Shown here: piece after piece, positions 41,448 to 47,903 of the stretch
How positions within the stretch are numbered: the first letter of the stretch is position 1
Layout: each line of letters opens with the position of its first letter
Origin: Candidatus Solibacter usitatus
Lineage (GTDB): Bacteria > Acidobacteriota > Terriglobia > Bryobacterales > Bryobacteraceae
Length of the DNA: 47,971 bases
Assembly (NCBI GenBank): GCA_016185465.1
Contig: JACPNO010000005.1
Coordinates: 1-47,971, forward strand
Direction of reading: 5' to 3'
Program-made: the position numbers and the translations under genes
The notes under the pieces: model-generated
What the model saw: the letters and a program-made list of their open reading frames with translations, nothing else
Databases searched by the model: none
Told to the model about the DNA's origin: nothing

Positions 41448-42659
41448 TTATTTGACCGCGACAATCGAAATCTGCTCCACCATCGGGTACGTTCCCGACG
41501 CCGCTCGCGTGCGCTCCACCGGCGGCAACGGCGAGACCGTGGTCCTGGTCGGCGGCGCAGTCTCGAAAAATTGCCCGTAAATGCCGTTCATCTTGGTGAA
41601 TTCATCCAGCGTGTCCAGATAAACGTTGCTGGCCACCACGTTGGAAAAATCCAGGCCCGCTTCTTCCAGGCCATCCAACAAGTTGCGCATCGTTTGGCGC
41701 ACCTGCGTTTCTACGTCCGGAACATAAATGCCTAAATGCGGTCCAGGGATGAACGCCGATTTCGCCGAGCAATAATACGTGTCGTCCGCCCACACGCAGG
41801 GGCTGGCAGTGGGACTGGGCGGCATATTTTTCGGACGGACCGCGCGCCGCTTGGAAAGATCGCCGATGGCCACGCCCGTGAATTCGACATTCGCCCCCAG
41901 CGGCAGGGAAGCCACTTCAATGGTGGCCCGAGCCGGCGTGTTGCCGAATTCGAAGTGCTTGGCGTAGACCCGATTCATCACTTCGGTGGGCATGTTCTTG
42001 GTCAGATACGGATTGACAAAAACCACGTTGGCGAAATCCATTCCCGCCGCCTTCAGCACCAGGCGGAAACGATCCAGCGCCAATTGCGCTTGCGCCGCCG
42101 GATCGTCGGGCACTTTGCCGGTCTCGGCATCTCGCCCCAGAAATCCCGAGATGTAGAGGCGATTGCCGGCCAATATTCCCGGCGAAACTCCCGGCCGCTC
42201 TGGGACACCCGCCGGCGCAATGACTTTCTTGCGCGCCAGATCGCGGAACGCTACCGCATTAATCTCGACCGGCGTGTCGGTGGGCATATGATGCACGCCG
42301 AGAATAGAGCGGGCCGGCGAGTTGCGCGGAAAGTATTGCGCGAGCACGCCCGTCACCGCTGTATGGTTCGCCATGTCCGCCAGGTAAACCTGCATGTAGA
42401 CCACATGCTCCATCGTCAGCCCAGCGGCTTCGACGATGGTTTTGATGTTTTCCAGCGCCCCGCGCGCCGCGCCTTCGAAATTCGCCGGCGGCTGGCCGTC
42501 AGGACCGCGCGCGCCTTGTCCGGATACGTAAAGAAAATCGCCCGCCATGATGCCGGGACTATACGGGCCGATCGGCTTAGGCCCGTTTGCGGGGACAATC
42601 ACGCGTTTCTCGGCCGGCAATACTGCCGTCAGCGCCAACAACATCCAGGCAAGTCTCAT
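41448..42659 (-). CDS. secreted protein of three tandem RidA (YjgF/Rid) domains
   Basis: A 403-residue protein with a signal peptide (about 1-16) followed by three Rid-fold domains at about 18-140, 143-267 and 272-403. Each keeps the arginine that in RidA binds the imine substrate: R117 (SPARSIL), R244 (TPARATIEV) and R372 (PPTRTTV). The glutamate that completes the RidA site is Asn in domain 1 and Thr in domain 2, so classic enamine deaminase activity is uncertain. Rid proteins form trimers; three domains on one chain could fold as a ready-made trimer. The start is an ATG with GAGGG close upstream. Divergent from the ilv leader. Confidence 0.85.
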   Translation of the reverse strand: MRLAWMLLALTAVLPAEKRVIVPANGPKPIGPYSPGIMAGDFLYVSGQGARGPDGQPPANFEGAARGALENIKTIVEAAGLTMEHVVYMQVYLADMANHTAVTGVLAQYFPRNSPARSILGVHHMPTDTPVEINAVAFRDLARKKVIAPAGVPERPGVSPGILAGNRLYISGFLGRDAETGKVPDDPAAQAQLALDRFRLVLKAAGMDFANVVFVNPYLTKNMPTEVMNRVYAKHFEFGNTPARATIEVASLPLGANVEFTGVAIGDLSKRRAVRPKNMPPSPTASPCVWADDTYYCSAKSAFIPGPHLGIYVPDVETQVRQTMRNLLDGLEEAGLDFSNVVASNVYLDTLDEFTKMNGIYGQFFETAPPTRTTVSPLPPVERTRAASGTYPMVEQISIVAVK

Positions 42660-42733: not shown

Positions 42734-42762
42734 TTGCATTTCAAATACTTTCAGGCTAAACT
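42734..42762 (+). promoter_or_regulatory. possible promoter of the ilv leader and operon
   Basis: TTGCAT (42734-42739) and TAAACT (42757-42762) are separated by 17 bp and end 11 bases before the leader-peptide ATG. The match is only moderate (3 and 4 of 6). The surrounding 100 bp are AT-rich compared with the flanking genes, as expected of a promoter region. Confidence 0.4.
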
Positions 42763-42773
42763 TTGTCTCAGTG

Positions 42774-42875
42774 ATGTTGTCAGGCTCTTCAGTTCGTTTG
42801 CAGTCCTCCGGGTCCCTCGTTCGAGTCGGAATCGTCATTCTTATTATTTTGGTCATCGTAACCGGCCCCGCTTGA
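42774..42875 (+). CDS. branched-chain amino acid leader peptide of the ilv attenuator
   Basis: A 33-codon frame between the divergent RidA-repeat gene and ilvB. Residues 15-29 read LVRVGIVILIILVIV: 13 of 15 are Leu, Val or Ile, followed by TGPA and a TGA stop at 42873-42875. This composition is what a ribosome uses to sense charged tRNA-Ile, -Leu and -Val. The stop codon sits directly in front of the antiterminator segment. It is similar in character, though not in sequence, to the ilv leader peptides of enteric bacteria. The ribosome site is weak; an in-frame GTG precedes the ATG. Confidence 0.85.
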   Translation: MLSGSSVRLQSSGSLVRVGIVILIILVIVTGPA

Positions 42876-42939
42876 GGCTGATCGGATAGTTTCCGAAGGC
42901 CATCGGCGGGGAGAAGGAAACCGGCTGATGGCCTTTTTT
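42876..42939 (+). terminator. attenuator with competing antiterminator, upstream of ilvB
   Basis: The terminator stem pairs AAGGCCATCGGC (42896-42907) with GCTGATGGCCTT (42924-42935): 12 pairs with one G-U, a 16-base loop, and a run of six T ending at 42939. An upstream copy GCTGAT (42877-42882) repeats the right arm (42924-42929) and can pair with the left arm ATCGGC (42902-42907), which would block the terminator. A small nested hairpin (CGGA/TCCG at 42883-42895) would help. A ribosome resting at the leader stop would cover GCTGAT and let the terminator form. A ribosome stalled on Ile/Val/Leu codons would leave it free. Confidence 0.85.
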
Positions 42940-42970: not shown

Positions 42971-44698
42971 ATGTCGAATTTAATGAGCGGCGCGAAAATG
43001 CTGTTGGAATGTCTGGCCAAGGAAGGCGTGGATTGCTTCTTCGGCTACCCCGGCGGCGTGACACTGCCTTTGTACGACGCGATTTACGATCACCCTATCC
43101 GCCACATTCTGGTGCGCCACGAAGAGAATGCGTGCTTCGCCGCCGAAGGCTATGCGCGCGCCACTGGAAAAGTGGGCGTGTGCTGCGCCACATCCGGGCC
43201 CGGCGCAACCAACCTGGTGACGGGTCTGGTGGACGCGATGATGGATTCGATTCCCATCGTGGCCATTACCGGGCAAGTGCCCACCAAGCTCATCGGCAGC
43301 GACGCGTTTCAGGAAGCCGATACCTTCGGCATCACGCGCTCCTGCACCAAACACAATTTCATGGTGCAGAAATTGGACGAGCTTCAGCAGATTGTTCACG
43401 AAGCTTTCTACATTGCTTCGAGCGGCCGCCCCGGGCCGGTGCTGGTTGACATTCCGAAGGACGTTTTTCTCGCCCAGGGGCACTATGCGCCCGTGAACAC
43501 GATTCATTTGCCGGGCTACAAAGTTTTCACCGAAGGTCACGCCGGCCAAATTCGGCGCGCGGCGCAAATGATCTGGGATGCCGAGCGGCCGTGGGTTTAC
43601 GCCGGCGGCGGCATTATCGCGGCAGGCGCCTCGGAAGAATTGCGGCAGTTGGTCGAGATAGTCGACATGCCAGCGGTTTGCACGCTGATGGGTCTGGGCG
43701 CACTGAGCAGCGATCATCCGAATTTCGTCAGCATGCCGGGCATGCATGGCAGCTACGCCGCCAACATGGGGATGTCGAATTGCGATGTGATGATCGCCCT
43801 CGGCGTGCGTTTCGACGATCGCGTGACTGGGCGCATCGCGGCTTTCGCGCCTAACGCCAAAGTGATTCACGTGGACATCGACCCGGCCGAAATCGGCAAG
43901 AACCGCGCGCCCGATCTTCCCATCGTCGGCGACGTCAAGCGCGTGCTGCAAAAAATGCTGCGCAATGTTGAAGAGCTCAAGCCGGCGAACGTGGAGAAAA
44001 ATGCCGCGTCGCGCCGCGCATGGTGGAAGCAGGTGCGCGGATGGAAAGAAGAGCATCCGCTGGCGCGGCCTACCTCCGATACCGAGATCAAGCCGCAGCA
44101 TTTGATGGCCGAGATCGACCGGCTTTCCGGCGGGCAGGCCATCGTCACCTCGGACGTCGGCCAGCATCAGATGTGGGGCGCGCAGTTGATTCGCTTCAAC
44201 GAGCCGCGGCTATGGATCAACTCCGGCGGCCTGGGCGCCATGGGATTCGGCCTGCCTTCAGCGATCGGCGCGCAATTCGCTCGTCCCGACAAATTGGTTT
44301 TCACAATCGTTGGCGATGGCGGATTTCAGATGTCGATCCCCGAGCTGGCGACGGTCGCTTCCTACGGACTGCCCATCAAGATCATCGTGATGAATAACGG
44401 CTATCTGGGCATGATCCGGCAGTGGCAGGAGCTTTTCTACAACAACCGGCTGTGCTCGGCGCAGCTCGATTGTTTCCCGGACGCCGAAAAACTCGCCGGC
44501 GCCTATGGCTTCAAGGGCCGTACGATCGACAAGCCGCATGAGCTGGCGAGCGCGCTCGAAGAGGCCGTGCGTGAGCCCGGACCGTACCTGCTCAATGTGC
44601 GCGTGTCACCGAACGAGAACGTGTATCCCATGATCCCGGCAGGCTGCGCGGTTAACGAAATGGTGCTAGGGCCGCCCGAACCCGTCGGCGCGGCCTAG
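42971..44698 (+). CDS. ilvB: acetolactate synthase, large subunit
   Basis: A 575-residue ThDP-dependent enzyme that joins two pyruvates to 2-acetolactate, or pyruvate and 2-oxobutyrate to acetohydroxybutyrate. The catalytic glutamate is E51 (VRHEENACFAAEGYA), and the ThDP motif runs from GDGGFQMS to MNNGYLG. The FAD-binding middle domain is present (GVRFDDRVTG). I start at 42971 (MSNLMSGAKML), with GAGG ten bases upstream; an upstream in-frame ATG lies too close to the attenuator. First structural gene of the ilvBHC-cimA operon; expression should depend on the attenuator. Confidence 0.97.
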   Translation: MSNLMSGAKMLLECLAKEGVDCFFGYPGGVTLPLYDAIYDHPIRHILVRHEENACFAAEGYARATGKVGVCCATSGPGATNLVTGLVDAMMDSIPIVAITGQVPTKLIGSDAFQEADTFGITRSCTKHNFMVQKLDELQQIVHEAFYIASSGRPGPVLVDIPKDVFLAQGHYAPVNTIHLPGYKVFTEGHAGQIRRAAQMIWDAERPWVYAGGGIIAAGASEELRQLVEIVDMPAVCTLMGLGALSSDHPNFVSMPGMHGSYAANMGMSNCDVMIALGVRFDDRVTGRIAAFAPNAKVIHVDIDPAEIGKNRAPDLPIVGDVKRVLQKMLRNVEELKPANVEKNAASRRAWWKQVRGWKEEHPLARPTSDTEIKPQHLMAEIDRLSGGQAIVTSDVGQHQMWGAQLIRFNEPRLWINSGGLGAMGFGLPSAIGAQFARPDKLVFTIVGDGGFQMSIPELATVASYGLPIKIIVMNNGYLGMIRQWQELFYNNRLCSAQLDCFPDAEKLAGAYGFKGRTIDKPHELASALEEAVREPGPYLLNVRVSPNENVYPMIPAGCAVNEMVLGPPEPVGAA

Positions 44699-44720: not shown

Positions 44721-45275
44721 ATGCTGCAGGTAATTTCGCTATTACTCGAGAACAAACCAGGAGCCCTGCTGCGGGTTACCGGGCTGCTGAGCGCGCGCGG
44801 CTATAACATTGAAAGCTTAACCGTGGCTCGCACGCTCGACCCGGAACTTTCCCGCATGACCATCGTGGTGGACGTCGACCCCGCGTTGCGCTCGCAAGTG
44901 ATCAAGCAGATGAACAAGCTGATCAACGTGCTGCAGGCGGTCGACCTGACCGAGACGCCATCCGTATGCCGCGACATGGTGCTGGTCCGGGTACGGACGG
45001 TGCAGGAATCGAGGACGGCCGTGCTGAAGGAAGCGGAGATTTTCGGGGCGCGCGTGATCTCCTCCGCCGTGGATGGTTTCGTTCTCGAAGCCAGCGGCGC
45101 GCCGGAAAAGCTGGAAGAATTCATTCAGGTAATGCGCAGCTATGGCGAAAGCGACGTGACGCGTGCGGGTACCGTGGCCATGTCGCTCGAAACCAAGAAG
45201 CTGCGGCTGCAACCGCCGGTCCCCACCCGCGCGGACGCCAAACTGGAACAGACGAACGGAGTTTTGAATGCCTAA
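44721..45275 (+). CDS. ilvH: acetolactate synthase, small (regulatory) subunit
   Basis: A 184-residue regulatory subunit. It has an N-terminal ACT domain (about 2-75, [19 protein letters not shown]) that binds valine for feedback inhibition, followed by the C-terminal ACT-like domain ([12 protein letters not shown]). It activates IlvB and makes it valine-sensitive. The gene lies 22 bp after ilvB and overlaps ilvC by 8 bp. Length is normal; the last about 25 residues are a basic, proline-rich tail. Confidence 0.96.
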
Positions 45276-46307
45276 ACGTTTCTACGAAAAAGATGGAAAT
45301 CTGGGTTTGTTGAAGGGCCGCACCGTGGCCATTATCGGCTACGGCAGCCAGGGGCACGCGCATGCGCTGAACCTGCGCGATTCGGGCGTGGATGTGGTGG
45401 TAGGCCTCTACAGCGGCAGCTCATCGTGGGCCAAAGCTGAAGCGGCCGGCTTGAAGGTGATGACCACCGCCGACGCCGCGCGCGCCGCCAACATCATCAT
45501 GATTCTGGTGGCGGATCATATCCAGGGCGATCTCTACAACAAGGAGATTGCGCCCCACATGACCGCCGGCAAGACGCTGATGTTCGCCCACGGCTTCAAC
45601 ATTCACTTCGGGCAGATTGCCGCGCCCAAAGACGTCGACGTGTCCATGGTCGCTCCCAAGGCTCCCGGCCATCGCGTTCGCGAGCTGTTTACCGAAGGCG
45701 TGGGAGTGCCGGCGCTGGTGGCGGTTCACCAGAATCCTTCCGGACAGGGGTTGGAACGCGCGCTGGCTTATGCGCTGGCGCTCGGCTGCCTCAAGGCCGG
45801 CGTGATCGAAACCAATTTCAAGGAAGAAACCGAAAGCGATTTGTTCGGCGAGCAGGCCGTGCTGTGCGGCGGCGTGAGCGAGCTGATTCGCGCCGGATTT
45901 GAAACGCTGGTGGAAGCCGGCTACGCTCCTGAAATCGCTTACTTCGAATGCCTGCACGAGCTGAAGCTGATCGTCGACCTGATTCAGGAAGGCGGCCTGA
46001 GCTATATGCGCTTTTCGGTCTCCGATACGGCCGAGTACGGCGATTACACACGCGGTCCGCGCGTCGTCACCGCGCAGACTCGCGCTGAGATGAAGAAAAT
46101 TCTGGCCGAAGTGCAATCCGGCGAATTCGCGCGGCAATGGATCGAAGAGAACAAGACCGGCCGCAAGAAATTTCTGGCCATGCGGGAAGCCGCGCGCGAT
46201 CAGCAGATGGAAAGAGTGGGCCGCGAGCTGCGCGAGATGATGCCTTTCCTCAAGAAAAAGAAGGAAGCGGGCATACCGGAAGATCAGCCGGCGCTGACTG
46301 CCAAAAA

Positions 46308-46311
<4 letters not shown>
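45268..46311 (+). CDS. ilvC: ketol-acid reductoisomerase (class I)
   Basis: A 347-residue NADP(H)- and magnesium-dependent enzyme converting acetolactate to dihydroxyisovalerate. Visible are the Rossmann motif [13 protein letters not shown], the cofactor-specificity loop GLYSGSSSW, the [10 protein letters not shown] segment, and metal ligands in [16 protein letters not shown] and HELKLIVDL. It is the short, class I type. The end carries a lysine-rich tail. The ATG lies inside the end of ilvH, and its stop overlaps the cimA start (ATGA), showing tight coupling of the operon. Confidence 0.97.

Positions 46312-47903
<1,592 letters not shown>

Follow-up and report, generated by a model that had tools for sequence, protein, structure and literature searches.

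The ilvGMEDA and ilvBN operons of enteric bacteria are governed by attenuators with the leader peptides IlvL and IvbL, and it is these systems that the locus described here recalls most closely. They share with it an Ile/Leu/Val-rich leader, an intrinsic terminator, a mutually exclusive antiterminator and an acetolactate synthase operon; the present locus differs from them in belonging to another phylum, in its unrelated sequence, in the location of an antiterminator arm within the last leader codons, in a leader that is probably leaderless and in having no clear protector hairpin. The ilvBNC operon of Corynebacterium (ilvB-II motif) also has a short Ile/Val/Leu leader before ilvB with an overlapping terminator and antiterminator, and its transcription begins a single base away from the leader start codon (PMC10272879, PMC11857589); its 15-residue leader and three-hairpin organisation set it apart from our element. 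Branched-chain-rich frames before ilvB are likewise mentioned for other Actinobacteria (PMC1262725) and for the ilvB-OMG and Leptospira ilvB motifs (PMC10272879). These candidates belong to other lineages and have other structures, and their function is uncertain; for the Streptomyces ilvB leader candidate, codon changes are described as being without effect (PMC1262725, PMC10272879). The trpL attenuator of Sinorhizobium meliloti resembles ours in the leaderless mRNA of its leader peptide, and differs in serving a tryptophan operon and in its structure (PMC7298713).

According to a survey of 2010, leader-peptide attenuators had been described in no phyla but Proteobacteria and Actinobacteria; the survey itself added a single Firmicute case, and hardly any acidobacterial attenuator in it had an assigned function (PMC2965389). 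The Corynebacterium paper of 2023 widens ilvB attenuation to further motifs, and its passages on this subject do not mention Acidobacteria (PMC10272879). Our full-text literature search found no acidobacterial case, in agreement with the initial annotation of this DNA, which was aware of none in the group; the attenuation survey of Lopatovskaya et al. 2010 may list one. As far as we have checked, a classical ribosome-mediated attenuator is new for the phylum Acidobacteriota.

The stretch analysed (the window) comprises 47,971 nucleotides of a 2.3 Mb draft genome of Candidatus Solibacter usitatus, and its relevant features are collected in Table 1. The gene order ilvB-ilvN(H)-ilvC-cimA, first read from the letters alone, is borne out by curated protein models. 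The divergent neighbour upstream of the operon encodes a RidA-type protein, and RidA proteins are tied to branched-chain metabolism in enteric bacteria. Since this gene points away from the operon, the terminator is not that of the neighbour and must be part of the transcript of the leader. From sequence and comparison we infer, with high confidence, that the region before ilvB would act as a ribosome-mediated transcription attenuator of ilvB-ilvN-ilvC-cimA. The enteric-style ilv attenuation proposed by the initial annotation is thereby supported, through the conserved leader, the co-varying stems and the promoter-like boxes upstream; the antiterminator pairing that it put forward had to be replaced, and the locus is not the single case it seemed, in view of the regulon and the phylum-wide pattern outlined below.

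Table 1. Coordinates of the attenuator region, the ilv operon and the divergent neighbour in the window
Feature	Position	Strand	Basis
Three-domain RidA/L-PSP-type protein gene	41448-42659	-	Pfam PF01042
-35-like box TTGCAT (in CTTGCATTT), 17 nt from the -10-like box	42734-42739	+	Conserved; putative promoter function
-10-like box TAAACT	42757-42762	+	TAnnCT-type box kept in relatives
Leader peptide frame, 33 codons, Ile/Leu/Val-rich, MLSGSSVRLQSSGSLVRVGIVILIILVIVTGPA	42774-42875	+	Read from the sequence and relatives
Putative control codons, ten branched-chain in a row (IVILIILVIV)	42831-42860	+	Direct reading
Antiterminator P1, 5' arm (CCCCGCU), within the last leader codons	42866-42872	+	Pairs with 42905-42911
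Antiterminator inner part: 42874-42879 with 42898-42904, and hairpin 42882-42896	42874-42904	+	Fold, relatives
Terminator left arm	42896-42907	+	Direct reading, double changes, fold
Antiterminator P1, 3' arm (GGCGGGG), overlapping the terminator left arm	42905-42911	+	Fold, co-variation
Terminator right arm (42924-42935) and U tract (42934-42939)	42924-42939	+	Direct reading, co-variation
ilvB, acetolactate synthase large subunit	42971-44698	+	TIGR00118, 798 bits
ilvN/ilvH, acetolactate synthase small subunit	44721-45275	+	NF008864 and TIGR00119, above cut-off
ilvC, ketol-acid reductoisomerase	45268-46311	+	NF004017 and TIGR00465, above cut-off
cimA, citramalate synthase	46308-47903	+	TIGR00977, 632 bits (cut-off 450)

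The leader frame opens with an ATG at 42774, an in-frame GTG at 42771 being a possible alternative start, and closes with a TGA at 42873-42875. Direct reading confirms the 13 Ile/Leu/Val in 15 positions first reported for its 33 codons (residues 15-29); residues 20-29 are all branched-chain. A content of 13 Ile/Leu/Val in 20 codons has a frequency of 1.5e-4 in shuffles (60 coding bases, 34 relatives), and when both strands of the window were searched for any short Ile/Leu/Val-rich frame with a terminator behind it, the leader site and one weaker match came up. We located IlvB in 60 relatives and compared the DNA upstream of each, the family set consisting of the 34 readable relatives with one genome per genus. 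In all 34, the last 20 codons of a short frame include 7 or more Ile/Leu/Val, and this frame ends 16-31 nt before a terminator; the average per 20 codons is 9.8 Ile/Leu/Val in this frame and 0.9 and 3.9 in the two alternative ones, and none of the 34 interrupts it by an in-frame stop.

The conservation extends through the order. Six genomes from its other families carry the element too, with a Pro-Gly leader ending in place of Pro-Ala, and a covariance model built from 39 sequences matches 218 of the 257 genomes of the order (148 of the 163 of good quality); some of the 39 genomes without a match are incomplete, but not all. In the 28 held-out genomes, which lie outside the model, every leader contains 8-14 Ile/Leu/Val in 20 codons, so that the conservation of the frame upstream of ilvB expected by the initial annotation holds in the family set and in the held-out set alike. 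Among 80 named ilvB loci, the sole credible match is on an Acidobacteriia contig (L058). Outside the order the model finds little: there is no credible match in 75 ilvB loci from other phyla, and the weak matches in the phylum (L169, L172, L175-L179, L181, L183) were judged to be due to chance. Many second matches per genome are the same terminator matched on its reverse strand, or terminators of unrelated genes (L198, L201, L202). One genome, a 5% contaminated assembly, carries the element twice, on separate contigs: L197 (G098:C72), which precedes an ilvB, and L192 (G098:C56).

The promoter-like boxes are preserved with the leader. TTGCAT is exact in 31 of the 34 family relatives and has a one-base variant in the other three, a box of this type is found in 26 of the 28 held-out genomes, the 17-nt spacer separates it from a TAnnCT-type box in 30/34 family relatives, and an in-frame start codon follows the -10-like box by 6-19 nt in 32/34. 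These conserved boxes place the predicted promoter upstream of the leader rather than downstream of 42880, as the attenuation reading supposed. Judging from the spacing, transcription would start at about 42768-42771 and the leader mRNA probably has no 5' untranslated region or a very short one; leaderless genes are predicted in Acidobacteria at an average of 13% over three genomes (PMC3160421). On one Bryobacterales contig (L059, 2740-3000) the TTGCAT promoter is kept before ilvB and the leader and terminator are lost.

Between the leader frame and the first gene sits an intrinsic terminator, predicted and co-varying. The 12-bp stem with its U tract is as originally claimed, with one G-U pair, and its fold has a z of -4.3 versus shuffles. 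When the arms are compared with their own and with swapped partners in the 34 family relatives, z is 9.8 (0 of 5000 permutations), and double changes occur in 8 of the 11 counted pairs. A consensus scanner missed both the terminator and the promoter in the window, because it allows loops of 3-8 nt only (here 16) and because the -35 box is TTGCAT. Leader translation might also act by Rho-dependent termination or by translational coupling, the hairpin being secondary, and the genus g39 of the same order lends itself to such a reading: its ilvB loci (L045, L047, L051-L054) keep the leader frame (IIPVAVACPG) and the P1 antiterminator upstream, and have no terminator with a U tract after the leader, so that this genus has possibly switched to another mode of control. 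The strong co-varying hairpin with a U-rich tail in the window and in 34/34 family relatives argues against this mechanism, which we regard as improbable for our locus.

For the antiterminator, the RNA was folded up to the point just before the terminator right arm. Nearly all relatives then form one hairpin, in whose outer helix the final codons of the leader pair with the 3' part of the terminator left arm; in the window this structure (P1 and inner part) has an energy of -29.6 kcal/mol and a z of -4.7 versus shuffles. P1 has an own-versus-swapped z of 8.4 (0 of 5000 permutations, 34 family relatives) and double changes in 6 of its 7 pairs, its arms changing together from CCCCGC/GCGGGG to TTCGCC/GGCGAA in L018, to CCTGCC/GGCGGG in L029 and to GCCTGC/GCAGGC in L050. 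The inner part takes a varied form in relatives and its own-versus-swapped signal is weak (z 2.5-3.2). Co-evolution is recovered in the 28 held-out genomes, with z 4.8 for the antiterminator and 6.9 for the terminator; two mutually exclusive helices with compensatory changes in both stems, as the initial annotation foresaw, are thus present in relatives and held-out genomes. The pairing it had chosen is another one. The leader stop does lie just before a GCTGAT (42877-42882), and the same hexamer does recur in the terminator right arm (42924-42929), but the antiterminator proposed on this ground (42877-42882 with 42902-42907), a possible pairing, is not the conserved one, the hexamer being absent in relatives. 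The signal is weak (z about 2) for co-evolution between the terminator right arm and 42851-42857 (GGTCATC, in the control codons), and weak as well for a protector or pause hairpin (1:2, as in E. coli trp; z 2.1), of which no clear example was found.

The frame is conserved and the C-terminal half of the leader is hydrophobic, which might point to a functional small hydrophobic (membrane) protein with a terminator that merely ends its transcript. We consider this most improbable, for leader length (18-51 codons) and sequence vary widely in the relatives, whereas the richness in Ile/Leu/Val and the RNA pairing are retained. The Gly-Pro-Ala end, near-invariant in relatives, is accounted for by an RNA constraint, because the last codons of the leader form the antiterminator arm; L018 and L050 change both arms, and L004 keeps the P1 pairing even though its frame ends before CCCCGC. 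Of 34 leaders (L001-L034 and L050), 25 have GTA as the fifth codon before the stop, more than pairing accounts for. As to a riboswitch or T-box sensing a small molecule or a tRNA directly, with an incidental short frame, the structured region before the terminator is indeed conserved upstream of ilvB and a ppGpp riboswitch governs some ilvB genes in other bacteria (PMC10272879), but Rfam gives no match at gathering or relaxed thresholds, T-box and ppGpp/PRPP (ykkC group) riboswitches included, little RNA is conserved beyond the two competing helices, and the frame is kept in residue class and not in sequence, with a codon bias and with residues that shift with the downstream gene, so that this explanation is scarcely credible.

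The ribosome-mediated attenuation that we propose would operate as follows. Transcription would begin a few bases before the leader start, and a ribosome would load on the (nearly) leaderless mRNA and trail the polymerase. With an ample supply of charged Ile-, Val- and Leu-tRNA, it would reach the stop at 42873 and cover 42866-42886, thereby preventing the antiterminator; 42896-42935 would fold as the terminator and the transcript would end near 42939. When the charged tRNAs are scarce, the ribosome would stall within 42831-42860, most effectively in the first part of this run, leaving 42866-42872 available to 42905-42911; with the terminator's left arm engaged in this way, the polymerase would read into ilvB. 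The supply of branched-chain amino acids would be sensed in this way, and the ilv genes would very probably be read only when Ile, Leu and Val run short.

Fold calculations can be set beside this scheme. With a ribosome at the stop codon, the predicted probability of the terminator has a mean of 1.00 in all relatives; with the ribosomal A site 14 codons upstream it falls to a mean of 0.62 in relatives and to 0.00 in the window, and scrambling the 5' antiterminator arm during the upstream stall brings the mean back to 0.93. The low value in the window is partly due to 42851-42857 being paired to the right arm of the terminator. In most relatives an early stall still leaves the terminator favoured at equilibrium; the switch must therefore depend on which structure folds first, the antiterminator being complete before the terminator right arm is made.

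The element is also found before other genes of the pathway, and the residue content of the leader follows the downstream gene. Before leuA (L195) the leader, SIASGILNLSLLALGLLTGPA, is Leu-rich, with 7 Leu, 2 Ile and 0 Val; before cimA (L194, and similarly L196) it is Ile-rich, MLTFLSIGIIIGAGITSPA, as it is before ilvA (L199), ARLAMAIIMIASSA. The copies before leuA, cimA and ilvA are few and lineage-restricted, and general leuA attenuation was discarded, the element being present at L195 only of the 31 leuA-type loci examined. In genus g9 (L194, L196), cimA is located away from ilvB with an attenuator copy of its own. Two genomes of one genus (L207 and L209, match at about 1501-1596) combine a short Ile-rich frame (RIVI..AAIIIAAPV) with an element resembling an antiterminator and a terminator, and their nearest clear downstream gene, about 540 nt away, encodes a 266-residue protein.

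Codon choice in the leaders is biased as well. The Val codon GTA, a rare one, accounts for 37% of Val codons in leaders (the conserved position being excluded) against 6% in ilvB genes (p 2e-21), and CTG and GTG are avoided in the leaders of the relatives. Theory holds that control codons are those whose isoacceptors are early to lose their charge, and the preference for GTA fits it.

In 13 of 40 genomes from other acidobacterial families, the DNA upstream of ilvB contains a frame with 7 or more Ile/Leu/Val in 20 codons and then a terminator; 0.5% of shuffles attain this content. There the region around the leader stop pairs with the terminator left arm (own-versus-swapped z 4.5, 0 of 5000), through sequences unrelated to those of the window, for example GCGGATGATGGCC with GGCCATGATCCGC. 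Two sampled genomes of family f8, which holds most of the same-class genomes, have no such leader. The same attenuation logic is widespread in the phylum, and it is not universal. In L180 (G528:C9:56650-56732), pheA is preceded by a Val-rich leader and a terminator, and ilvB follows in the same orientation after about another 1 kb; this arrangement suggests a pheA-ilvB unit under branched-chain control.

In conclusion, our observations resolve an attenuator at single-base precision and support it by covariation in held-out genomes; the element occurs in more than 200 genomes from a single order of soil bacteria, abundant and poorly studied, and represents a ready-made reporter of branched-chain starvation for the phylum. 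We tentatively extend these observations, at somewhat less than even chances, to an undescribed phylum-wide branched-chain regulon comprising ilvB, leuA, cimA and ilvA, whose leader would be translated without a 5' untranslated region. If this is true, the ribosome would load as the RNA emerges and would keep in synchrony with the polymerase without a pause hairpin, and codons for rare isoacceptors would set the sensitivity of the response. Could attenuation have originated repeatedly, and could its control codons be chosen for the isoacceptors that are the first to lose their charge? For both questions these leaders constitute a natural data set.
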